A stretch of DNA of 55,223 bases from Flavobacteriia bacterium. Its GTDB lineage: Bacteria > Bacteroidota > Bacteroidia > Flavobacteriales_D > Crocinitomicaceae. Both the position numbers and the translations under genes were made by a program. Positions 4,284 to 55,024 of this stretch are shown piece by piece. The notes beneath the pieces were generated by a model. That model was given only the letters and a program-made list of their open reading frames with translations. It had not been told where the DNA came from and made no database searches. The DNA lies in NCBI GenBank assembly GCA_016183815.1, contig JACPDW010000027.1:1-55223 (forward strand). Direction: 5' to 3'. The first letter of the stretch is position 1; the number at the start of each line of letters is the position of its first letter.

Positions 4284-4946
4284 TTAAAGAATTGAATTTA
4301 ATTGGTACTTATTTACAACAGATGACCAAGTTGGCTTTACAGGCAACTCTTTTTCTAGAATTTCACTTTTCACCTCCTTTCCTGTTTCTTCATCAAAATA
4401 TTGACTTTTAGCACTAATTACTTTACCAAGCTCGCTATAAAGAATTGTTTGAAATCTAGAAGTATAAATTCTGATATTATTTTTTAAGTCATAAACATAC
4501 ATTTCCCTTTCCTCCGCTTCTGGGCCATCATTTGAATTTTTATAAATTGAAATGATCTTAAATTCGCCCTTTTCTACATATTTTATTTCAGTAAATAAGA
4601 TTTGACCTTTTTCAGAATATTCATCAAATGAAATTGAAGGATTATTATTAATAAAATTTAGTTTATGATTATCGACTCTTTTATTTGTAATTTCATAATC
4701 TTCATTAGCAGGTAAATGGAAAGTGTCTATGTAAGATTTGAATTTATTAATCCAACATAGAGAACCTAAATTATCTATTTCTTTAGTAAGTCTATCAATT
4801 TCTTCCTTATTGGGATTTTGTGGTTTTGTCGTTGTAGGTTTCTTTGTCGTTGTTGTAGGTTTCTTTGTCGTTGTTGGTTTTTTCGTTTGCCCAAAAGAAA
4901 AGCCAGTTATTAGTACTATAAGAATTGCTGTGGTTATTTTTTTCAT
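4284..4946 (-). CDS. Secreted protein with TKKPTTT repeats
   Basis: A 220-residue protein with a signal peptide (MKKITTAILIVLITGFSFGQ) followed at once by a low-complexity linker of repeated KKPTTT units (about residues 21-44), then a globular part of about 170 residues rich in beta-strand patterns. The linker probably spaces the domain from the membrane and is encoded by a near-repeating DNA tract (4806-4890) that could vary in length. No enzymatic motif is seen. It belongs to the leftward group of exported proteins of unknown function. Confidence 0.65.
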   Translation of the reverse strand: MKKITTAILIVLITGFSFGQTKKPTTTKKPTTTTKKPTTTKPQNPNKEEIDRLTKEIDNLGSLCWINKFKSYIDTFHLPANEDYEITNKRVDNHKLNFINNNPSISFDEYSEKGQILFTEIKYVEKGEFKIISIYKNSNDGPEAEEREMYVYDLKNNIRIYTSRFQTILYSELGKVISAKSQYFDEETGKEVKSEILEKELPVKPTWSSVVNKYQLNSIL

Positions 4947-5017
4947 TTTTAGAATTTTAAGTTTATATTTTGTTTAATCAATTAAGAAATTAAAAGGTAA
5001 GTGTTAAACGTTACACT

Positions 5018-7458
5018 TTATTCAATACCATTTGATGAAATAACATTCAATCTACTATCCAATTCTAAAGAATAATGATCTATATAATTGCCATTGTTTC
5101 CTCTTTGTCCTTCACAATAAATTTTTTTATTCATATAAAAACATTTATCAATAACCCTTGGTTCTTCTGATTTAATTATTTTTTGGGTAAGCAATTCTGC
5201 ATTATTTGAGAACAATAAAAACATAGAATTTGGTAAAATGCAATTTGTGCAACTATTGTTAATTGCTCTACCAAGTGAGTTTACAACTAGGCCTTTATTG
5301 TCTTTGTATTGAAGATAGTTGATAACGATTAGAAATCTGTCATCTATTTGTAAAACACCAGCTAATGTTCCTGTTACTTCATTTTCAATTTGTTTAAATT
5401 CTTTTTCAATTTTACCAGTTTGAAAATTAATTAGTTTAAAAGAAATCGAACCATTTTTGTAGTTAGAATGCTCAACAAATATTAAATTACCATCAGTCAA
5501 ACTTATCATAGTTGAATTGTTTTCTCCTAGTTTTTTTTTGCAGACAACATTCTCCCAAATGAAATTACCAAAATCGTCTACATTTACTATTTTAGTTTCA
5601 CTTTTAGAATTTAAGCATTTAACAATAAAACCGTTTGTTTTTTTGTTTCGAACTATTTCATTTGTCCATTCATTTAAGTTTGCTTCATCATTGTCTTTAG
5701 TTGAAATAGTTTTTAACCACAATACTTTTTTTGATAAATCATTTTGATATGGGTCAATTTTTGCAATGAAAATATCAAAATCCTTTGTATAGTGATTTTT
5801 ATTGACAAAAAAACCAGTAATAAACATCATACTATCTTCGCTATTAGTATAAGTTGCAGTTGTAATATAATTATTGATTAATGCTTCCCCTTCATCATCT
5901 GGATACAATGCATATTCAACATCCAAATCATCTTTTGAATTAATTAATTTGTTAATATTGACACCATAATCACTTAAAATTAAGAGCTTTATTTTTGATA
6001 GAGTATCATTTTTTAACCCTGAATAATATTTATGTTGATTTTCATTATTTCTTTCTACTTTTTCCCACAAACTTTCTACTGATCCAATTTCAATTGTTGA
6101 ATTTGATTTTTGAGAATCTAATTTTCGATTATCAGGGACAAAGCTATATTCTTCGTAATAAATGTAATCATTAACGAAGAGTCTCACTACCTTTCCATCA
6201 TGTAAAGCATATCTTTGAAGGAATAACTTTTCTGAATCATTAATATTTTTTTGAACTTCTTGCAACTTATTTATTTGTACTTGAGCGTCATCTGCATATT
6301 TTGAGTTTGGATAGAACTGAATATACTTTGAATACATTTCCTTGCTATTATGTTTCAAAACATCCAGATACATTAGACTATCTCGAAAATGAATTGCTTC
6401 ATTCAATTGTGGAGAGTTTGGAAATACTTTAATGTATTCATCCCAAGCATTATAATTATTGTCAAATTTTAAAACAATTTTGAAACTATAATTTTGAATA
6501 ACACTGTCTAACTTTTGTTTGTCAAATTCTAAATCCTCTATTTCTTTCAACTTGTATAAATTTTTCAATATATCTTGATGACCATGTTCAAATTGAATTT
6601 TTACTTCTAGAAATATTTTTTCAATTGCTTCATTTGTAAAATTAGACTTAGGGTATTTTTTTAAAAACTCAATTAAACATAAACCATCTTTACATTTTTC
6701 AAAGCTAGATGTTATTTCTTTTTGTTTTAATATTTCGATATTTTCTAAAATTTGAATTTTGTAAATGGAATTCGGATACTTAATTAAATAGTTCTCAAAA
6801 TCAACCCTATTGGTACTCCTTGACAAAACATTATAATCAATTGCTCAATTTTCGCATTTAGTGAATCAGAATATTTAGAATTAGGAAATTCAATGAAAAA
6901 TTTTGAGTACAAGTTCAAATCATTACTTTGTAATATTTCCCTGAAGCGCAATTTCTCATAAATTTGAAGTGCAATATTATAAGATTCAATTCCTTGTGGG
7001 TATTTATTAAGAAATTTTTTCACTTCATCACTTCGTTGATTACTACAATAATTAGCTAGAGAAATTACGGATAAAGAATCTAAATTATTTGTAAAAGTTT
7101 CTTTGCATAAATTGAACTTATCACACAATTTTTGTTGATTTTTTTCATCTAATTTATTGAATTGATCATTTGCAATTTTCATTTGAAAAAATGCACTATC
7201 CACATTGATATTTGTCCTTTCAAAATAAAAAGAGCTTGCATAATATCCTAAGGGTGACTCAGGATAATTTCCTTTTAAATCTTGGCTTAATGTAAAGATT
7301 TTACGAATTGTTATTATAAAATCATTTGTGTTGACCGTTTCTTTTAAATTCTTATCAATCAATTCTTTGACTTTCTTGAATTCTTTTTCCTGACCGATTG
7401 CAATAGTAGGTAATACAAAAATCATCAATATAACTGCTGTTTTTTTAAATTTATGCAT
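5018..7458 (-). pseudogene. Large secreted repeat protein split by a frameshift
   Basis: Two overlapping frames read as one protein: 7458-6784 (signal peptide MHKFKKTAVILMIFVLPTIAIGQ, then helical repeats) and, one base out of phase, 6826-5018. The second lacks an ATG; its first possible start is TTG. Repeats with the phrase FPNS/YPNS (FIEFPNSKYSDS, LIKYPNSIYKIQ, IKVFPNSPQLNE, IQFYPNSKYADD) run across the junction, so the frame was once continuous. Restoring a single missing base near 6830 gives about 813 residues: TPR/Sel1-like repeats in the first 330, then a beta-rich, propeller-like C-terminal half. Either a true mutation, a sequence error or, least likely, programmed frameshifting. Function unknown. 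Confidence 0.65.
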
Positions 7459-9888: not shown

Positions 9889-10604
9889 GTTTTTAACTTC
9901 TCTAAAATTTCTTTTGCAGAATGAGAGTGTATTGAATTATTCTTGATCTGCTTTTGAAGGATTTCTCTAGCAAATGAAATTTTATTTTCTATTAAATACA
10001 ACAATGCAAGGCGGAATTGAGCTTCATCAAAATATGTTGAATTTGGTTTAATTTTCTTTAACAACTTGATTGAAACTTGATATTCTCTATTCTCGAAGTT
10101 AATCAAGGCAATATAATATGATGCTGTATCTGATTTTATTTTGTTTAATTCTGTTAAAGCCAAATCCCATTTCTGCAACTTGTACGCATTCATTGCATTA
10201 TCGTATTTTCCTTTGTTGCTCATTTTGACAGGGATTCCTTCATCTTGTATCCAGTTTTCTTGAGCAAGTTGCGGCAATGAAATTTGATTTGAAAAATATT
10301 CATAGATAAAAACTCCTAAAATAATTGAAGCAGCAACAGCAGTTGATAACCAAATTACTTTATTCTTATTTGGTTTTATTGAAAGTTTCTTATCTAATTC
10401 AACATCTATTTCAGAAAACTTATTTTTTAATTCAGTTTTATAATGTTCTTTTATCCCTCGTTCGATTGATTTAAATGATTCAAATTGATTTTTAAAATCG
10501 GAATCGTAAATCAACTGTGCTTCAAATTCTTGCATAGATTTTACATCCATCTCATTCGATAGATAATTTTCAAAAAGGGTGATATTTTTTTCTTCGATAT
10601 TCAT
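9885..10604 (-). CDS. Anti-sigma-like membrane protein with TPR-type C-terminus
   Basis: A 239-residue protein: an N-terminal cytoplasmic part (about 1-80) with the short acidic FENYLSNEMD start seen in Bacteroidota anti-sigma factors, one membrane span (83-103, VIWLSTAVAASIILGVFIYEYF), and a periplasmic part with TPR-like repeats (NAMNAYKLQKWDLALTELNK, AQFRLALLYLIENKISFA). No zinc-binding HxxxCxxC motif is present. Its ATG overlaps the stop of the sigma gene as TAATG, so the two are translated together. It probably holds the partner sigma factor at the membrane and releases it upon a cell-envelope signal; role inferred from pairing. Confidence 0.7.
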   Translation of the reverse strand: MNIEEKNITLFENYLSNEMDVKSMQEFEAQLIYDSDFKNQFESFKSIERGIKEHYKTELKNKFSEIDVELDKKLSIKPNKNKVIWLSTAVAASIILGVFIYEYFSNQISLPQLAQENWIQDEGIPVKMSNKGKYDNAMNAYKLQKWDLALTELNKIKSDTASYYIALINFENREYQVSIKLLKKIKPNSTYFDEAQFRLALLYLIENKISFAREILQKQIKNNSIHSHSAKEILEKLKT

Positions 10605-11173
10605 TAGAAAATAAAAATCATTGAAAGTTTTTTGAGTTCTTCAATCAATCTTTTCATGCAAATTGATTTTTTACTTTTAGCTGTATCTGCATTTTTATAA
10701 TTAAGTTCACGAGCAATACTCTCCATATCAAATTCATCGAAATAATATAGTTTAAGTACTTTTTGACAATCTTCTGGTAACTTGGCAATTGCTTTACTTA
10801 TTTGTTCCTTGTTGTATATTTTATCTTCTTCTTCCATGTAATCATTTAGTTCATTGCCTTTTATCACTTGAACTAAATCATTGTAAGTGACAACCCTTGA
10901 TTCTTTTTTTTGAAGATTGAGTACTTTGAATTTTCCTATTTGAAAAAGATATGTTTTTAAGGATGTATCTAATTCTGTTAATTGTCCTGAAATAATATTT
11001 TGGTGAAAAATAATCATTGCTTCCTGAAATGAGTCTTTCGCTTGTTCTTCAGATGCTTTATAATTTTTGATGCTCCATTTTATGAATTCGTTCCGATATA
11101 ATTTATATATCTCAAGCAGAGGATTTTCATTACCTTGTTTAATTTGAGATATAATATTTTTTTCATTTATCAT
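10604..11173 (-). CDS. ECF-family RNA polymerase sigma factor
   Basis: A 189-residue sigma-70-like protein. Region 2 spans about residues 20-95 (DSFQEAMIIFHQNI...SLKTYLFQIGKFKVLNLQKK), region 4 about 125-180 (IAKLPEDCQKVLKLYYFDEFDMESIARELNYKNADTAKSKKSICMKRL) with the expected helix-turn-helix. The ATG at 11173 (MINEKN) is chosen over a TTG four codons upstream. It precedes and overlaps the putative anti-sigma gene. No downstream target operon is visible nearby on this strand, so its regulon probably lies elsewhere. Confidence 0.85.
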   Translation of the reverse strand: MINEKNIISQIKQGNENPLLEIYKLYRNEFIKWSIKNYKASEEQAKDSFQEAMIIFHQNIISGQLTELDTSLKTYLFQIGKFKVLNLQKKESRVVTYNDLVQVIKGNELNDYMEEEDKIYNKEQISKAIAKLPEDCQKVLKLYYFDEFDMESIARELNYKNADTAKSKKSICMKRLIEELKKLSMIFIF

Positions 11174-11380
11174 TTGAGAGTGCAATTATAGTAAAAATTT
11201 ATAGAAGTTTATAGGTTTGGGGTTTACTAAATTAACAAATGAATAATTAAAAAATTAATTTGAATATATCTAAAAACAGCACTATTTATTGTTATTTACA
11301 ACTAAATCAATAATTAGCATGATTTTAATCATTTTTTAACTCGATTGATGTGAATACTTTTACACTTGAGAATATTTGTT

Positions 11381-11995
11381 ATGCTTGATTTGTCATTTTC
11401 ACAGGAATTCGTTAAAAAAAATTTTCTTCATTCAGAAATTGAATTGGAGAAAAACGCCTTTGTTTTCACAGAAAATGAAAAAAATGAATACGTCTATTTT
11501 ATTGAAAATGGAATAGTTGATATTTTTAAAAATAACATCTTAATTGGAATCACTAAAGATGGTGAATTTATAGGAATTACCTCTTGTCTGAGTGATGGAG
11601 AGGAATATTCTTTTACTGCTAAATGTAAGAAAAAAAGCAAAATTATAAGAATTTCAAAAGACAATTTCAAAAAAGTAATTGAAAAAGACAAAAAGTTTTG
11701 TGATTACATGATGAAAACTTTATGTGAAAGAATTAAAATTACTGATTTAAAAACAAAAAGTTTTCTTGAAAAAACTTATGAAAAAAGACTAGTTTTTGAA
11801 ATTATTACCCATTCAATTTTTGATGGGACTATTAGAAAAGTTAGCATAAGTATTGACGAGTTAAATAAATTGACCGGTATTCCAAAAAAAATTATTCAAA
11901 CCATCATAAGTAATTTTGTTTCAGACAAAGTGTTATTGAAAAAAAGAAGCGAGATTATTATCATTAATATGGATAAGTTGCAAAGTTCATTGTAA
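11381..11995 (+). CDS. Crp/Fnr-family transcription regulator
   Basis: A 204-residue protein with an N-terminal cyclic-nucleotide-binding-like beta-roll (about 20-110; YVYFIENGIVDIFKNNILIGI...GEFIGITSCLSDGEEYSFTA) and a C-terminal winged helix (about 140-200; ISIDELNKLTGIPKKIIQTIISNF). The canonical phosphate-binding RxA signature of cAMP receptors is not present (SFTAKCKK), so the ligand is uncertain, and no Fnr-type cysteine cluster is seen. The ATG at 11381 is preferred to the TTG at 11366. Lysine-rich composition and isolated position; targets unknown. Confidence 0.75.
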   Translation: MLDLSFSQEFVKKNFLHSEIELEKNAFVFTENEKNEYVYFIENGIVDIFKNNILIGITKDGEFIGITSCLSDGEEYSFTAKCKKKSKIIRISKDNFKKVIEKDKKFCDYMMKTLCERIKITDLKTKSFLEKTYEKRLVFEIITHSIFDGTIRKVSISIDELNKLTGIPKKIIQTIISNFVSDKVLLKKRSEIIIINMDKLQSSL

Positions 11996-12078
11996 ATCTG
12001 CGATTTTTTCAGCGTAAATCTGCAGGAAAACACTCATTGATTTCTCAAATTTCAAAAACAATATAAATACTGTTTTTT

Positions 12079-13317
12079 TTACTCTTTTAAAAAAGCTGTT
12101 CTTAGTAGATTCAGAGCTGCCAAAGAAGTCATTTGTCTGTTTCTTTCTCGATTGTCACCAAAAATAAATTTTTTAGCTAACACACGTTCATTTGAAGCTA
12201 TTGCAATCCAAACTAAACCAACAGGTTTGTCTGGTGTTCCACCGTCTGGACCAGCAATTCCAGTGGTAGCTATACAATAATCTGTATTCATTTTTTTTAA
12301 GCCACCAAGTGCCATTTCTATAGCCGTTTCTTCACTAACAGCTCCTTTAGTTATTATTGTTTCTGGATTTACTTCTACCAATAAAGACTTTAATTCGTAG
12401 CTGTATGCAACAATTGAACCCATGTAATATCTCGAAGACCCAGGAGTATCGACAATTGTAGAAGCAATACCTCCACCAGTACAACTTTCAACTGTGGACA
12501 AAGTTTTGTTTTGTGTAATCAATTTTTTTCCAATAACAGTAGATAAAGAATCATCTTCATAAGAAAAAAAGTTGTCAGGTATTCTATGCTCTAAGTCTAA
12601 AAAATATTGTTGAATTTTAATTTTATCAATCTCGCCATTTGGAGAGGTAATTCTTAATTTAACCATGCCTGGAGAAGGCAAATAAGCCAAAGAAAATCCG
12701 TCTTTTCTTATATTGTCTTCCCAATCTTTTATCAATTCAGCTAAATAAGATTCTCCAATTCCTGTTGTATTGGCAGTTAGATGGTAAATTGATTTTAATT
12801 GATATTTTTTAGTCAGCAATGGAAGTACTTCTTTCGTAAATATTTCTTTCATTTCATAAGGTACTCCAGGTAAGCTGATGAAAATAGTTTTGTTTTTTTC
12901 TAGTAACATTCCTGGGGCTGTTCCAATAGTATTGGGTAAAACAATACTTTTTATAGGTACAGCAGCTTGTTGAACATTTACTTCTAAAAGAGGTTTCTTT
13001 CTTTTTATAAAAAATGATTCAACTTGTTTGAGCACATCTAGATTGATTTCCAGTTTGGTATCAAAATAATTACATAAAACTTGTTTTGTAATGTCGTCTT
13101 TTGTTGGACCTAATCCTCCAGTTATTATGACAATATCACTTCTTTTTTCAGCTATTGAAAGAGCATCAGTAATAGCATAAGATTCGTCTGAAACGGTTTG
13201 AACATTTTTAACAGATACTCCAATCAAGGAAAGTTGCATTCCAATCCATGAAGCATTGGTATTGAGGGTTTTCCCAATTAATAATTCGTCTCCAATGGAA
13301 ATAATTTCTGCAATCAT
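12079..13317 (-). CDS. cinA: CinA-family nicotinamide-nucleotide amidohydrolase
   Basis: A 412-residue protein of full family length. The N-terminal molybdopterin-binding-like (COG1058) domain carries ISIGDELLIGKTLNTN and the GGLGPTKDDIT motif. The C-terminal PncC domain (from about residue 255) has TVESCTGGGIAS, the PGSSRYYMGSIVAYS segment and TGIAGPDGGTPDKPVG. It deamidates nicotinamide mononucleotide to nicotinate mononucleotide in pyridine-nucleotide recycling; the N-terminal domain acts as an ADP-ribose pyrophosphatase in studied homologues. Single gene, divergent from the PhoH gene. Confidence 0.95.
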   Translation of the reverse strand: MIAEIISIGDELLIGKTLNTNASWIGMQLSLIGVSVKNVQTVSDESYAITDALSIAEKRSDIVIITGGLGPTKDDITKQVLCNYFDTKLEINLDVLKQVESFFIKRKKPLLEVNVQQAAVPIKSIVLPNTIGTAPGMLLEKNKTIFISLPGVPYEMKEIFTKEVLPLLTKKYQLKSIYHLTANTTGIGESYLAELIKDWEDNIRKDGFSLAYLPSPGMVKLRITSPNGEIDKIKIQQYFLDLEHRIPDNFFSYEDDSLSTVIGKKLITQNKTLSTVESCTGGGIASTIVDTPGSSRYYMGSIVAYSYELKSLLVEVNPETIITKGAVSEETAIEMALGGLKKMNTDYCIATTGIAGPDGGTPDKPVGLVWIAIASNERVLAKKFIFGDNRERNRQMTSLAALNLLRTAFLKE

Positions 13318-48664: not shown

Positions 48665-49177
48665 ATGAATAAGAAAATAGAAAAAGCAATCAATGAACAA
48701 ATATTAAAAGAAAATTTTTCATCACAATTTTATTTGTCAATGGCCTCGTGGGCAGAAAATCAAGGACTTTCAGGTACAGCAAAATTTTTATATGCTCATT
48801 CAGATGAAGAGAGAATGCACATGTTGAAATTTGTAAAATTTGTAAATGAAAGGGGAGGAGTGGCACAAATTTCTGGGATTGAACAACCGCCACATAAATT
48901 CAAAAGTTTAAATCATGTTTTTGAATCTTTATTAGAACATGAATTAATGGTTACTCAAAGCATAAACGAAATTGTTGATATTTGTTTAAAAGAAAAGGAT
49001 TTTTCAACCCATAATTTTTTACAATGGTTTGTAAATGAACAATTAGAGGAAGAAGCTTTAGCAAGAAATATTTTAGATAAATTAAAATTAATTGGAGAAG
49101 ATAAAAGTGGTTTATATATGTTTGATAAAGACATTGAAACTCTAATTTCTGCTCCAAAAACTACAGAAAATGTGTAG
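48665..49177 (+). CDS. ftnA: Bacterial non-haem ferritin
   Basis: A 170-residue ferritin of full length. Ferroxidase ligands are in place: the first Glu in ILKENFSSQFYLSMASW (E16), ExxH in HSDEERMHMLKF, and the Glu residues of NEQLEEEALARNIL. It stores iron in a 24-mer cage. Only 13 bases separate its stop from the cyclase gene, so both are probably on one message. Confidence 0.95.
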   Translation: MNKKIEKAINEQILKENFSSQFYLSMASWAENQGLSGTAKFLYAHSDEERMHMLKFVKFVNERGGVAQISGIEQPPHKFKSLNHVFESLLEHELMVTQSINEIVDICLKEKDFSTHNFLQWFVNEQLEEEALARNILDKLKLIGEDKSGLYMFDKDIETLISAPKTTENV

Positions 49178-49190
49178 TGTTCAATAGAAT

Positions 49191-52100
49191 ATGAATATAT
49201 TTAATTTATTAATATATATTTTGTTAAAACGAAGCATTTTTTTACTTCTACTGTTTTTTTCTTTTTTTTCTTTTTCACAAAGCTCGTATCGATTTAGAAA
49301 TTATTCTATTTCAGATGGACTCTCACAAAGTTATGTATCTACGATCATTCAAGATAAATATGGTCAATTGTGGTTTGGGACACAAGATGGTTTAAATAAG
49401 TTTGACGGTTCAAGTTTTGAAAATTTTTCTTCAGATAATACTATAGGAATTGATAATTCTTATATTAGAACCTCAATCAAAGCTAAAAATGAAAATTTAT
49501 GGTTTGGGACAGCCGATGGTTTGTTGTGTTATCAACCTAAAATAGAAAAATTTGAATCATATCATCTAAAACAAAATATAGCTCTTCAAATTGAAAGCAT
49601 AAGCATTGAAAATAATGACATACTTTGGGTTGGTACTAGTTCAAATGGAATCTTTCAATTTTATATTAAAGAAAAAAAATTTAAAAAATTACAAACCAAA
49701 CTTCCTTCAGAAAAAATTGTCTTTTTGCGTTACGTTTCAAATAAAAAACTTTTAGTTAGTACCGAAGATAAAGGTATGTTTTTATTGCATTTAGAATCAG
49801 GCAAAGCTGAAGAAATTGCAGTAATTGGGAAAAAAAAATCTTTTGTTAGAGTTAATACACTGATTGAAATCAAACAAAATAATTATATTTTAGGAACTAA
49901 TCAGGGTTTATATGAATTTAGTCTAAACACAAAAAAATCTATTCCATTATATCAAAAACTCGATAACGAATACGGTGAAGTAGATGTCAGTGATTTATTT
50001 TTAGAGGACAATAAAAATCTTTTTGTGGCTAGCAAATCTCATGGGTTGTTTTCTATTCAAAAAGAGGAAAATGTGCTAAAGATTGAACAAAATACACACG
50101 ATATTTTTCAAAAAAATGCTTTATTATATAATTCACTAAATAAAATCTATAAAGATAAAAACAACACTTTTTGGCTTGCGAGTCAAAGAGGAATAAGTTC
50201 TTTTGACCCTCACAGTAAAGGATTTTTAAGTGTATCACCTAGTGGTAATTTAAGCAAAGGTATTCCTTCGCCCAATGTTTGGTGTTTTGCTGAAGATAAA
50301 TCAGCTCAATTTTTATATGTCGGAACGGACAACGCGATTTCTAGAATGAATAGAAAAAATGGAAAATTTGAAGCTTTTTTTAGGAACAAATTAAATACTA
50401 CAGAAAATTCTGAATCGTCTATTTTATGCCTTTATGTAATTCATTCTAACTATTTATTAGTTGGCACCACAGAAGGGTTATATGAGTTGGAAATTCAATC
50501 AGCAAATCAATATAGTTATAACAAATTGAATTATAAAGGAATTATTGATCCTTCCAATTTTGATAGAACTTATAAAATCTTCCATTGGAAAAATAATCTT
50601 TATTTTATTGCAACAAAAGGAGGAGTTTTACTATACGATTTCAATAAAAAACAGTTTAGGGCTTTTGAACACGACAGAAAAAATCCTAATAACACGATAT
50701 CACCTGGGTTATGCAAGTTTATTTTTAAAGACATTAAAGGTAAAATATGGTTCACTACAACAACAGGTGGTTTGAATTATCTTGTTGAAAATGAAGAAGA
50801 ACTAAAAATTGTCCCTTCTCAATACAATTCTATTATTGGAAAATATTCTAAAGATTATATTACAAGTATATTGCAACAAGAAAAAAATATTTTTTGGATG
50901 GGAACGATTGGTTCTGGGTTTTTAAAACTCAACTTGAATACTAGCGAGGTTAATTCTTTCACAAAAAAAGATGGATTACCAAATAATGTTGTTTACTCTA
51001 TTTTAAAAGACAAAAACAATAAATTATGGATGAGTACAAATAAAGGGATATCTCTTTTTGATCCCTCCTTTAATAAGTTTACCAATTTTTCTGAAATAGA
51101 TGGATTAGTTTCTACTGAATTTAATTTAGGTGCATCACTTCAATCTAAGAATGGTCAATTATTTTTTGGTTCAATTAATGGGTTTAATTATTTTTTCCCA
51201 CAACATTTAAACGTTCAAAAGAATAAAACTAAAGTGGTTTTTTCAAAAATAAAATTAGATGGAGACTGGATAAAACCCAATAATAAGAATTCTATTTTAA
51301 CAAGAAATATATCAGAAACCAATAGAATAGAACTTAATTACAAACAAAGAAGTTTTACGATAAAATTTATGACTATTGACATGAGTAACCCTGGGTTAAT
51401 TCAATATAAATATGAATTAGAGGGTTCTGATGAAGGAGAAATATTGTTAGGAACATCGAATTTAATTCACTTCAATTCATTACAATCAGGTGAATATGTA
51501 TTAAAAGTTTACGCTAAAGTAGGAAATGGTGATTGGAACGATGTCCCTGCTGAAATACAAATTTCTGTGGCTGCTCCATATTGGAAAACTGGTTGGTTTT
51601 GGACAATTATTCTTGTTGTAGGAGGTATTGTATTAATAATTGTAACAAGAAAAAGAATCGATGAAGAAAGAAGAGAGCAAGTTCGTCTTGAAATGAAAAT
51701 TGCTGAAAGAACAAAAGAAATTCGAGAACAAAATATCAAAATAGAAAAACAAAAACAATTGATTGAAGAGAAAAAAAATCACTTGGAGGAACAAAAACAT
51801 TTATTAGAAGTAGAAAAAGAAAAAACAGAAAAACTCTTAAGAAATATTATTCCTGAAAGCACCATGCAGGAGTTAAAAACAAAAGGAAAAGCTAGTGCAC
51901 GTGCTTATAAAACGGTATCCGTAATGTTCACCGATTTTGTAGGTTTTACAAAAATTGCGGAACGGATGAGTCCGTCAGAATTAGTAAATGAATTAGACAT
52001 CTATTTTAGAAAATTTGATGAAATTGTTGTACGAAATAATTTAGAAAAAATTAAAACAATAGGCGATGCCTATATGTGTGCAGGTGGAGTTCCTGTTCGA

Positions 52101-53132
52101 AACAATACCAATCCAGTGGATGCTTGTTTGGCAGCAATTCAGATTCAAGAAGCACTTCGAGAAATGAGAAAAGAAGCTGAAGTAACAGGTAAAGAAATTT
52201 GGGACTTACGCCTTGGAATCAATACTGGTGAGGTTACAGCAGGAGTCATCGGCTCAGAAAAACTGGCTTACGACATTTGGGGTGCTACTGTAAACCAAGC
52301 TCAAAGAATGGAGATGATGGGTGCTCCCAATTCTGTTACTATTTCTGGTCAGACTTTTTCCTATATAGAGCCCTATTTTGTTTGTATTTATAAAGGAAAA
52401 GTAAAAACAAAAAGTAAAGGTTTGATGGATATGTACACTGTTGAAGGTATCAAACCAGAACTTTCAATAGATGGAAAAGGTATTTATCCTAATGATAAAT
52501 TTGTTCAAATTTTTAATTTACATCATTTTAGTAGTATCAATTACTACAAAGCTGAACGTTATATTATGAAAATTTTGGAAAAAAAATTATCTCCAAAATT
52601 ACATTACCACTGTATTGAACATACAAAAGAAGTTTGTAAAGCAGTTGAACGTATTGCATTAATGGAAGGTGTAACCGATGAAGGTTTATTCTTATTAAAA
52701 TCTGCTGCTACATATCATGACGCTGGATTCATTGAAAGTTATGATAAAAATGAACCAGTTGGAGCTCGACTTGCAGAAGAAATTCTTCCTAAATTTGGTT
52801 ATAATCAAGAACATATTCAGCAAATTATTAAACTTATTTATGTAACACAAGTGCCTCATAATCCTACAAATAAACTTGAAGAAATTATTTGTGATGCAGA
52901 TTTAGACTACTTAGGTACCGATAATTTTCATAGCATTTCAGACAAATTAAGATTGGAATTAAGAGAACATGGTAAGATTGATAGTGACAAAAAGTGGGAT
53001 GAAATTCAAATTGACTTTTTGACAAAACACAAATATTTTACTCAAACAGCCATTAAACTTCGACAAGCTAAGAAGGAAAAACACATGGATGAAATTCGTT
53101 CTCGTTTAAATCAAAATGAATACAAAGATTAA
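49191..53132 (+). CDS. Membrane sensor: propeller, Y_Y_Y, adenylate cyclase and HD domain
   Basis: A 1313-residue protein. After a signal peptide (about 1-29) come some dozen reg_prop repeats (GQLWFGTQDGLNKFDG, ENLWFGTADGLLCY, KLWMSTNKGISLFD) forming a periplasmic double propeller to about residue 690, a Y_Y_Y domain, one membrane span (800-822) and a coiled coil to about 885. A class III cyclase follows: metal ligands D915 (FTDFVGF) and D959 (TIGDAYM), adenine-selecting K955 and D1028, transition-state N1035 and R1039, all as expected for adenylate cyclase. The C-terminus (about 1120-1313) is an HD domain with H1138-H1144 cluster and H1176-D1177 (YHDAGF). So one chain may both make and hydrolyse a nucleotide signal in reply to an external cue. 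Other reg_prop sensors end in histidine kinases or regulators. Confidence 0.88.
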   Translation: MNIFNLLIYILLKRSIFLLLLFFSFFSFSQSSYRFRNYSISDGLSQSYVSTIIQDKYGQLWFGTQDGLNKFDGSSFENFSSDNTIGIDNSYIRTSIKAKNENLWFGTADGLLCYQPKIEKFESYHLKQNIALQIESISIENNDILWVGTSSNGIFQFYIKEKKFKKLQTKLPSEKIVFLRYVSNKKLLVSTEDKGMFLLHLESGKAEEIAVIGKKKSFVRVNTLIEIKQNNYILGTNQGLYEFSLNTKKSIPLYQKLDNEYGEVDVSDLFLEDNKNLFVASKSHGLFSIQKEENVLKIEQNTHDIFQKNALLYNSLNKIYKDKNNTFWLASQRGISSFDPHSKGFLSVSPSGNLSKGIPSPNVWCFAEDKSAQFLYVGTDNAISRMNRKNGKFEAFFRNKLNTTENSESSILCLYVIHSNYLLVGTTEGLYELEIQSANQYSYNKLNYKGIIDPSNFDRTYKIFHWKNNLYFIATKGGVLLYDFNKKQFRAFEHDRKNPNNTISPGLCKFIFKDIKGKIWFTTTTGGLNYLVENEEELKIVPSQYNSIIGKYSKDYITSILQQEKNIFWMGTIGSGFLKLNLNTSEVNSFTKKDGLPNNVVYSILKDKNNKLWMSTNKGISLFDPSFNKFTNFSEIDGLVSTEFNLGASLQSKNGQLFFGSINGFNYFFPQHLNVQKNKTKVVFSKIKLDGDWIKPNNKNSILTRNISETNRIELNYKQRSFTIKFMTIDMSNPGLIQYKYELEGSDEGEILLGTSNLIHFNSLQSGEYVLKVYAKVGNGDWNDVPAEIQISVAAPYWKTGWFWTIILVVGGIVLIIVTRKRIDEERREQVRLEMKIAERTKEIREQNIKIEKQKQLIEEKKNHLEEQKHLLEVEKEKTEKLLRNIIPESTMQELKTKGKASARAYKTVSVMFTDFVGFTKIAERMSPSELVNELDIYFRKFDEIVVRNNLEKIKTIGDAYMCAGGVPVRNNTNPVDACLAAIQIQEALREMRKEAEVTGKEIWDLRLGINTGEVTAGVIGSEKLAYDIWGATVNQAQRMEMMGAPNSVTISGQTFSYIEPYFVCIYKGKVKTKSKGLMDMYTVEGIKPELSIDGKGIYPNDKFVQIFNLHHFSSINYYKAERYIMKILEKKLSPKLHYHCIEHTKEVCKAVERIALMEGVTDEGLFLLKSAATYHDAGFIESYDKNEPVGARLAEEILPKFGYNQEHIQQIIKLIYVTQVPHNPTNKLEEIICDADLDYLGTDNFHSISDKLRLELREHGKIDSDKKWDEIQIDFLTKHKYFTQTAIKLRQAKKEKHMDEIRSRLNQNEYKD

Positions 53133-53566: not shown

Positions 53567-55024
53567 ATGACCCAACAAGAACTCATACACAAACTCTCCG
53601 ACCTTGAATGGGAAGATTTTGAGGTAAAAGAAGCCAAAGGAGAAATCCCAAAATCTGCTTGGGAAACCGTTAGTGCATTTTCCAACTCTGCTGGTGGGTG
53701 GCTTGTTTTTGGCGTGAAACAAGTAGCACAAAATTTTGAGGTAGTTGCAATCTCCAACCCTGAAAAAATTGAACAAGATTTCTTGGCTACACTTCGTAGT
53801 GCACAAAAGTTCAATGTGGTAATCAATCCAACTTGTGTAAAACATAACATAGACGGAAAAGTAGTTTTGGCTTTTTACATTCCAATTTCTAAAAACAAAC
53901 CTGTTTATTTCAATTCACAAGCAAACACTTACATTCGTAGAGGTACTGCCGACCAAAAAGCAAGTAAAGAAGAAATAGATTCACTCTACCGCGATCAAAC
54001 TTTTGGTACCAAAACTTCCGAAATTGCTGCTGGAACCTCCCTTTCCGATTTGCGAGATAAATCCATTCGAGAATATAGAGATTACATGTCGCGTTTCAAT
54101 TCGAGTGTAAGTTACAACCGCATGGAACTAGATGACTTTTTGGTTAAGATGCGTATTTTGGATAAAGAAACGAAGCAATGTACTTTTTCAGGCTTGCTCT
54201 TTTTCGGAAATCGTAATTCAATCGAAAGCTTTTTTCCTGATTTTCGGGTTGATTTGTTTGAGATTCCAGGAACAAGTAATCAAGATTCAACTTCTCGTTA
54301 TACCTTTCGCCTTTCCGAAGATGATTATGAAAACTTGTGGGAAGTTTATTTTGAATGTTTCAAACGTTTACGAAAAGAAGTGGACGTTGACTTTAAACTT
54401 TAAGCAGAAGGATTTGGGGAAGAACTTTCGCCAGGTTTAAAAGCAATTCGTGAAGCTCTTGTCAATATGTTGATGCATGCTGATTATTTTTCGCCAGCGC
54501 ATCCACGCATTCGCATTTTTAACAATCATATTGAATATTACAATCCGGGAGGTTTACCAAAACCTTTAGAAGAATTAAAAGGTAAAGACCTATCAATTCC
54601 CAGAAATCCTATACTTGCTAAATTGTTCCGTATGGTAAAACTAGCTGAAAATGCGGGTTATGGTTTGGATAACATCGAACACCATTGGAAAGAATACAAC
54701 GGTACTTCGGTAGATTATGTAATTGATTTTGATTCAACAATTGTGAAGTTGAGGACAAGTGATATAATAAGTGAGGGTGTAAACGAGGGTGTAAATGAGG
54801 GTGTAAATCTGAAAATTGAGGGTGTAAATGAGGGTGTATTATTAGAACTGCAATATTTATACGATACAATAGCTACTCAAGAAGGTAAAAAAGCTGTAGA
54901 GTTAAACACTATGATAAACAAAAGCTTAGCAACAACTGAGCGTTATATAAAAATACTAAAAGAACAGGGATATATTGAATTCAGAGGTGCTTCTAAAACG
55001 GGCGGTTATTTCACAAAGAAATAA
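53567..55024 (+). pseudogene. AlbA_2 / ATP-binding transcription regulator with in-frame TAA
   Basis: The frame encodes an AlbA-like DNA-binding domain (WEDFEVKEAKGEIPKSAWETV, SNSAGGWLVFGVK, YIRRGTADQKASKEEI), then a GHKL-like ATP-binding part (IREALVNMLMHADY, NPGGLPKPL, RNPILAKLFRMVKLAENAGYG), a linker with repeated EGVN and a C-terminal winged helix (TTERYIKILKEQGYIEFRG). A TAA at 54401-54403 between VDVDFKL and AEGFGEELSPGLK cuts it, in phase on both sides, so one base change broke a protein of about 485 residues. Such COG2865 regulators are common accessory genes. Confidence 0.75.
54773..54838 (+). repeat. 12-bp repeats encoding EGVN
   Basis: GAGGGTGTAAAC/T occurs three times in tandem and twice more after a nine-base gap, encoding EGVNEGVNEGVN and EGVNEGV. 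The unit keeps the frame, so copy number can vary as a linker between the ATP-binding part and the winged helix. Confidence 0.8.

Follow-up and report, generated by a model that had tools for sequence, protein, structure and literature searches.

A conserved bacterial family that joins a propeller sensor, a class III cyclase and an HD domain in a single chain

The window analysed here is the whole of a 55,223-nucleotide stretch of DNA (positions 1 to 55,223 of contig JACPDW010000027.1, assembly GCA_016183815.1) from a Flavobacteriia bacterium of the Crocinitomicaceae. An uninterrupted open reading frame (ORF) with an ATG start (49191-53132, + strand, 1313 amino acids) encodes, in this order, a signal peptide, a Reg_prop propeller, a Y_Y_Y domain, one membrane helix, a coiled coil, a class III cyclase and an HD domain. 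An earlier note, made from the sequence alone, had described a propeller sensor, a cyclase with six adenylate-type residues and an HD domain with intact H and HD residues in one chain. Pfam confirmed this arrangement on the intact ORF, the six cyclase residues (D915, K955, D959, D1028, N1035, R1039) were found where that note had put them, and the HD residues (H1140, H1144, H1176, D1177) are present. As described below, the protein represents a real, conserved sensor-cyclase-HD family.

The protein begins with a hydrophobic signal segment (residues 1-29, 49191-49277; this and the following features are all on the + strand), after which comes a Gln that would fit the Bacteroidetes Q-rule. The sensor part consists of a Reg_prop beta-propeller (residues ~31-725, 49281-51365; E 1.5e-23, 80.2 bits against a cut-off of 20.4), predicted to be extracytoplasmic, and a Y_Y_Y domain (PF07495, residues 731-793, 51381-51569; E 5.8e-13, 49.0 bits against a cut-off of 26.6). 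In the PDB it matched the two-component sensor 4a2l (4.4e-84) and also 3v9f, which we take to be Bacteroides proteins. The window protein thus resembles the Reg_prop/Y_Y_Y hybrid two-component sensors in its propeller and Y_Y_Y domain and differs from them in its output, a cyclase and an HD domain instead of a kinase and a regulator. A hydropathy scan of the protein gave two hydrophobic stretches, the signal segment and residues 798-824, within which lies the single membrane helix (51582-51662). With a signal at the N-terminus and a single membrane crossing, the propeller should face outwards, and the cyclase and the HD domain should lie in the cytoplasm. The coiled-coil and transducer region 5' of the cyclase (residues ~825-902, 51663-51896) was modelled as one long helix followed by a short one, with an HNOBA match below the cut-off (E 0.01).

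The catalytic domain of the class III cyclase (residues 903-1085, 51897-52445) matched Guanylate_cyc (PF00211) with an E value of 5.6e-44 (150.4 bits, cut-off 21.9). We take D915 and D959 to be the metal-binding Asp residues, K955 and D1028 the adenine-type pair, and N1035 and R1039 the transition-state residues. The PDB matches comprised adenylate cyclases 9, 5 and 8 and other class III cyclases, the adenylate cyclases being the best, and by analogy with these known families we infer that the domain is of the adenylate type, acts as a dimer and converts ATP to cyclic AMP (cAMP). That the product is instead cyclic GMP (cGMP) or, as in Pycsar, a pyrimidine cyclic nucleotide (cNMP), with the HD domain acting on it, seems to us very improbable. 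PADLOC matched PycC weakly to the cyclase (best 48.4 bits), no canonical cAMP receptor could be recognised by eye among the genome's six PF00027 proteins, and distant HD relatives are fused to PycTM. Against this, K955 and D1028, the adenine-type pair, are kept in 35/35 orthologs, adenylate cyclases lead the PDB matches, and the PycC matches may be generic to any class III cyclase. Moreover, Pycsar combines PycC with PycTM, and in the source genome the PycTM effector (PF18967) had no match (PycTIR was not tested) and the PycC matches were weak.

The HD phosphohydrolase domain occupies residues ~1113-1300 (52527-53090), as judged from PF01966, a structure model and conservation. PF01966 matched residues 1142-1237; over the full-length chain the score of 20.4 bits stays under its cut-off of 22, and it rises to 24.6 bits when the C-terminal part is scanned by itself. 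In addition to the H and HD residues, E1188, D1237, Q1273, F1276 and H1280 are conserved; the H...HD...D set is made of H1144, H1176, D1177 and D1237.

The cyclase-HD part was matched in 58 of the 59 genomes searched, the source genome included. The earlier note had suggested looking for this domain order in other genomes, and the 35 full-length orthologs that we collected have it without change. In all of them D915, K955, D959, D1028 and N1035 are invariant (R1039 is Q in three), as are H1140, H1144, H1176, D1177, E1188 and D1237. Mean identity to the window protein was 0.68 for the HD domain, 0.65 for the cyclase, 0.45 for Y_Y_Y and 0.36 for the propeller, so that the HD domain is constrained at least as much as the cyclase while the sensor drifts. 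Domain order, both active sites and the pairing of the two domains are therefore conserved.

In the source genome there are two class III cyclases and two HD copies, carried by the same two genes, and the HD domain was found nowhere else in it. The second gene (G000:C31) encodes a receiver-cyclase-HD protein of 563 amino acids and adjoins genes that by eye resemble a histidine kinase and a LytTR-type regulator. A set of 80 named loci includes cyclase-HD proteins with various N-termini, in records labelled Flavobacteriales, Bacteroidales and others. Locus L194 encodes a kinase-AAA-GAF-cyclase-HD protein of 1865 amino acids. The cyclase-HD pair, newly described here, is a recurrent module with differing N-terminal parts. 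In an even sample of the phylum (296 genomes), the cyclase-HD query matched in 183; among the matches listed, four span both parts, two in the source genome, one in G025 and one in G075. The G075 match has two internal stops, and locus L196 reveals it to be a pair of adjacent genes. Because spanning matches were so few, the fusion, which is common near the source family and in some Bacteroidales, looks rare elsewhere.

Close relatives of the HD domain also keep company with class III cyclases, some of them as separate genes nearby. Of these 296 genomes, 104 were matched by the HD profile (E up to 1e-10) and 159 by PF00211 (E up to 1e-5). A cyclase was present in all 22 genomes with an HD match of at least 185 bits and in 137/274 of the rest (Fisher P = 1e-6, uncorrected for kinship between the genomes and with a threshold picked after the scores had been seen). 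At other thresholds the cyclase-bearing genomes were 18/18 (at least 200 bits), 33/36 (at least 175), 49/56 (at least 165) and 73/101 (at least 100), with 51/79 in the band from 100 to 185 bits and 75/104 among all HD-positive genomes. By profile count, the loci examined held 28 ORFs with an HD domain and no cyclase, three of which lie less than 200 bp from a cyclase gene on the same strand. A separate HD gene follows a same-strand cyclase gene on its 3' side in L193 (gap 10 bp), L196 (39 bp) and L105 (112 bp), and lies within 2 kb of a cyclase in L191, L195, L197, L125 and L090; in the last two the cyclase is a propeller-cyclase that lacks an HD domain. In L105 the gene for a cNMP-binding protein is convergent with the HD gene. 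These loci cannot serve as independent tests of adjacency, since a cyclase in or beside the HD gene was already known from searches when L125, L194, L195 and L196 were chosen, and the cyclase-HD search itself supplied L105 and L090.

Other architectures were seen among the HD relatives. Many of the weaker matches fall in frames of about 400 amino acids, and the three that were scanned (L186:1953-3140, L188:1957-3129 and L190:1372-2592) are HD relatives fused to PycTM (PF18967, 115-126 bits). Of the genomes with such fusions, G083 and G140 had no class III cyclase match and G270 has three. Our searches of the Pycsar and HD literature yielded no paper that takes up an HD-PycTM fusion in its title or opening, and the accessible part of PMC12265719, in which Pycsar and HD terms occur, deals with a different system. 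Large TPR-HD proteins are encoded at L191:2099-4741 and L192:1387-3966, with an N-terminus that is TIR-like by eye and without a Pfam TIR match at E 0.01; in L191 a receiver-cyclase-like gene lies 13 bp from this gene in convergent orientation. At L193:1153-2610 and L195:10686-12146 the HD domain is fused to YitT_membrane and DUF2179, the L193 gene standing directly 3' of a receiver-cyclase gene.

What the HD domain may hydrolyse was approached through its family and fold. Two alignments were used, A1 (49 rows) and A2 (46 rows), from each of which near-copies and eight rows that had lost the active site were removed; the HD profile, the models and the fold searches consequently describe intact-site HD domains only. 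The structure model (mean predicted local distance difference test score 96.1) was matched by Foldseek to 2pq7 in the first place (3.9e-4) and to YpgQ in the third. VIA-align, which gave a second look at the Foldseek candidates, listed 50 matches, 47 of which name cyclic-nucleotide phosphodiesterases (PDEs) in their titles (PDE10A, 7A, 2A, 6C and others), and the other three (4ys7, 5vp0 and 5vp1) have residue ranges of PDE10A or PDE2A. The 50 alignments had Z 16.6-17.6 and a root-mean-square deviation of 2.7-3.4 over 195-203 of 217 residues, and much of this agreement could stem from the common HD superfamily fold. By profile, PDEase_I (PF00233) matched 10 of the 49 HD relatives weakly (E up to 5, best 2.3e-4), with 17.4-18.4 bits when they were scanned singly and 22.1 bits in one genome match, against a cut-off of 24.8. 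At a relaxed cut-off, the path between the HD profile and PDE4D aligned YHxxxH, HD, ADL (with D1237), Q1273/F1276 and H1280. Q1273 and F1276 thereby fall opposite the Gln and Phe that we take to form the purine clamp of PDE4D, a correspondence that is suggestive only after the shuffle control given below. The window HD is like the class I PDEs in its YHxxxH and HD motifs and, as far as the shared superfamily fold allows a judgement, in fold over nearly the whole domain; unlike them, it has no second active-site His after HD and no PF00233 match.

Several observations weigh against a cyclic-nucleotide PDE. The PF00233 profile gave no match to the window HD, which reads HDAGF where the class I motif HDxxHPG, as in PDE4D, has its second His; for both reasons we rejected membership of class I. 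The hhalign comparison of the HD profile with PDE4D was weak (E 0.005, probability 7%) and placed E1188 opposite a Ser, and with shuffled PDE tails Q and F were also aligned in 35/400 and Q, F and H in 5/400. In addition, 29 of the 104 HD-positive genomes, those with more distant relatives, had no class III cyclase match. Against solved structures, the profile of the 49 intact-site domains ranked 2pq7 (2.9e-9), YedJ (5.9e-6) and BH2835 (3.3e-5) on top, with weaker matches to the YqeK-like BH1327 (0.004), PDE9A (0.006) and YpgQ (0.0068), so the nearest solved relatives by profile are of the YedJ/YpgQ type, and the Foldseek ranking of 2pq7 and YpgQ points the same way. With these phosphohydrolases (5dqv, 3gw7, 3dto, 2pq7) the window domain shares a single HD and the H...HD...D site; unlike them, it belongs to a subfamily that occurs fused to class III cyclases or in frequent linkage with them. 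According to the available part of PMC8177086, YpgQ is a pyrophosphohydrolase of nucleoside triphosphates (NTPs) and deoxynucleoside triphosphates (dNTPs) with one Mn bound by H29, H58, D59 and D124. The same text assigns H...HD...D to the mononuclear HD phosphatases and an extra His to every polynuclear PDE known. The window domain has the H...HD...D set alone, and since in that text the extra His goes with polynuclear PDEs, a class I-like site is disfavoured.

Several of these results would fit an HD domain that hydrolyses another nucleotide, be it as a pyrophosphohydrolase of NTPs and dNTPs or as an enzyme acting on alarmones or dinucleotides, and that couples cAMP synthesis to a separate pool, an alternative that we hold to be somewhat unlikely. 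It would account for the profile kinship with YpgQ, which cleaves NTPs and dNTPs, for the mononuclear-type ligand set and for the distant relatives in genomes without a cyclase match; moreover, H1140 and H1144 agree in spacing, a comparison made without structural alignment, with H25 and H29 of YpgQ in the part of its description available. It fits poorly with the company of the close HD subfamily (class III cyclases in 22/22 genomes, fused or adjacent in several loci, and a cNMP-binding protein beside the HD gene of L105) and with the whole-domain fold match to class I PDEs. A YpgQ-like domain may also act on cyclic nucleotides: in the accessible text of PMC8431786, the plant protein BDPDE1, for which 3dto served as modelling template, hydrolyses both cAMP and cGMP in vitro. 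Like the window HD, BDPDE1 and ATCN-PDE1 are HD proteins, and that part of PMC8431786 mentions no cyclase domain in them; the PDE motif printed there, compared by eye, does not occur in the window HD, a further point against a PDE. Taken together, sequence and fold allow a cyclic-nucleotide PDE and do not prove one.

The HD site is not kept by every relative. We aligned 89 non-identical rows (leaving out L040, which equals L017, and repeats of the window gene and its paralogue), 87 of which contain both cyclase and HD. All six cyclase residues are present in 80 of these 87, the four HD ligands (H1144, H1176, D1177, D1237) in 76 and both sets in 69. Ten of the 89 rows lack at least one of H1144, H1176 and D1177 and retain all six cyclase residues, which speaks against the PDE reading; they are Bacteroidales or unplaced Bacteroidota records, except for one labelled Chitinophaga. 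The ten have further lost D1237 (10/10), F1276 (9/10), E1188 (6/10) and H1280 (5/10), and have retained D1235 and H1140; Q1273 is also kept in eight, a point against the clamp. In the remaining 79 rows, position 1237 is D in 78 (N in the otherwise intact L065), position 1276 has F in 74 or Y in four, H1280 is H in all 79 and Q1273 is Q in 76. D1235 was considered as the fourth metal ligand and rejected, as it stays in the ten rows that lost other ligands. Since D1237 disappears from all ten, this covariation, together with the weak PDE4D alignment, favours D1237 over D1235 in the role of fourth ligand. On the cyclase tree the lost-site label needs three changes, so the loss may have occurred more than once; a single origin is also possible. 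In L067, L074, L076 and L088 a lost-site cyclase-HD gene lies about 3 kb from an intact-site one; in L074 the two genes are at 5884-7284 and 10255-12132. In each of these pairs the protein with the degenerate HD has intact cyclase residues.

Such rows would suit an HD domain that chiefly dimerises or regulates, for instance as a feedback sensor that binds a nucleotide, and that catalyses little and leaves the cyclase as sole output: domain and cyclase site outlive the HD site, perhaps repeatedly. We consider this improbable: the four ligands and E1188 are kept in 35/35 full-length orthologs, and the joint loss of D1237 and F1276 with the site is what would be expected if these residues were catalytic elsewhere.

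We also looked for partners of the cyclase in the genome. The window carries a Crp/Fnr-like gene with a PF00027 match (11366-11995, + strand, with an internal ATG at 11381), which the earlier note had hinted might be linked to the sensor cyclase while observing that it lacks an evident cAMP-binding signature. The latter remark was borne out: by eye, the Arg of the cAMP phosphate-binding cassette is missing from its usual place in this and the other five PF00027 proteins that the genome encodes, a further point against a cAMP signal. The hinted link found no support, and we rejected it on account of the missing Arg and the gene's distance of 37 kb from the sensor-cyclase gene. As for other PDEs, PF00233 and PF02112 had no match in the source genome, which favours a PDE role of the HD domain; CpdA-type enzymes were not searched for there, so the HD domain need not be the genome's sole PDE candidate, which tempers the case. 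Across 148 genomes of the phylum no class I PDE (PF00233) scored above the cut-off, and the only match (E 1.9e-4, below the cut-off) lies inside an HD-relative match in G109.

The earlier note had proposed that one chain could make a nucleotide signal and break it, or another nucleotide, down. This reading is partly supported: in its favour are the conserved active sites, the co-occurrence and occasional adjacency of cyclases and close HD relatives, and the resemblance in fold to class I PDEs; the loss of the HD site in 10/89 rows whose cyclase residues stay, and the failure to recognise a canonical cAMP receptor by eye, do not favour it. Our preferred reading, held at about even odds, is that the HD domain acts as a phosphodiesterase on the product of its own cyclase, in a one-chain make-and-break module like CAPE. 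The periplasmic propeller and Y_Y_Y domain would sense a ligand and pass the signal through the membrane helix and the coiled coil to an adenylate-type cyclase dimer, which would make cAMP. The C-terminal HD domain, a putative metal-dependent phosphohydrolase, would most likely hydrolyse cAMP to AMP, and the local cAMP signal might be brief, or its level set by the balance of the two opposed activities. Here we infer the HD substrate, the ligand and the coupling between both sites, and hold all three to be uncertain.

The phosphodiesterase of CAPE, a Marchantia protein, reportedly belongs to class I. In the available part of PMC5159850, CAPE carries a PDE at its N-terminal end and a class III cyclase at its C-terminal end, and both are active; the window protein likewise has a class III cyclase and a putative PDE in one chain. 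As far as that text goes, CAPE is eukaryotic (streptophyte) with the PDE at its N-terminus, whereas the window protein is bacterial, its HD domain is C-terminal and outside PF00233 and, unlike in CAPE, a propeller sensor and a membrane helix precede the cyclase. A broader view, possible and on the doubtful side, is that we see an independent bacterial counterpart of CAPE and that the small-HD subfamily is the missing 3',5'-cyclic nucleotide PDE of the Bacteroidota: a fused off-switch here, encoded beside cyclases elsewhere, and a PycTM-fused timer in distant relatives. Our literature searches, which left subscription journals largely outside, found no paper on a bacterial propeller-cyclase-HD chain, and the accessible part of a census of bacterial signalling proteins (PMC1183210) has nothing on such a fusion.

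If the HD domain does degrade the cyclase product, this would be a bacterial sensor in which a single chain writes and erases a mononucleotide signal. It would also provide a candidate phosphodiesterase family for the Bacteroidota and make cAMP signalling in the phylum directly testable. GGDEF-EAL proteins can both write and erase cyclic di-GMP.

Directly upstream of the sensor-cyclase gene, with a gap of 13 bp, lies a ferritin gene (48665-49177, + strand; PF00210, E 1.1e-39). Common transcription and a link to iron are possible, and this neighbour offers a physiological lead for the sensor cyclase. A ferritin gene is found within 140 bp upstream in 15 of the 36 relatives with enough sequence (four of 40 were too short), and with this frequency we rejected it as a fixed partner. 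Ten of the 21 relatives without ferritin have one gene family upstream, nine of them within 5 bp; the two scanned encode SpoIIE-type phosphatases with HAMP below the cut-off. Two other non-ferritin relatives have a Band_7 gene there. In L157 (1363-3192) and the nine further relatives, which belong to other genera, the SpoIIE-type gene is 3' of a second conserved gene (with a TPR match below the cut-off in L157). L126, a locus from a different family, encodes a HAMP-SpoIIE protein with 39-44% identity to those of the ten, and next to it comes a separate HD gene in place of the sensor cyclase; L127 has the same gene order; the L126 SpoIIE-type gene (4521-6290) belongs to a similar gene pair that precedes the separate HD gene. 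Finally, at 53567-54403 and 54467-55024 of the window, consecutive ORFs carry Schlafen AlbA_2 and HATPase_c_4 pieces and may be one interrupted gene.

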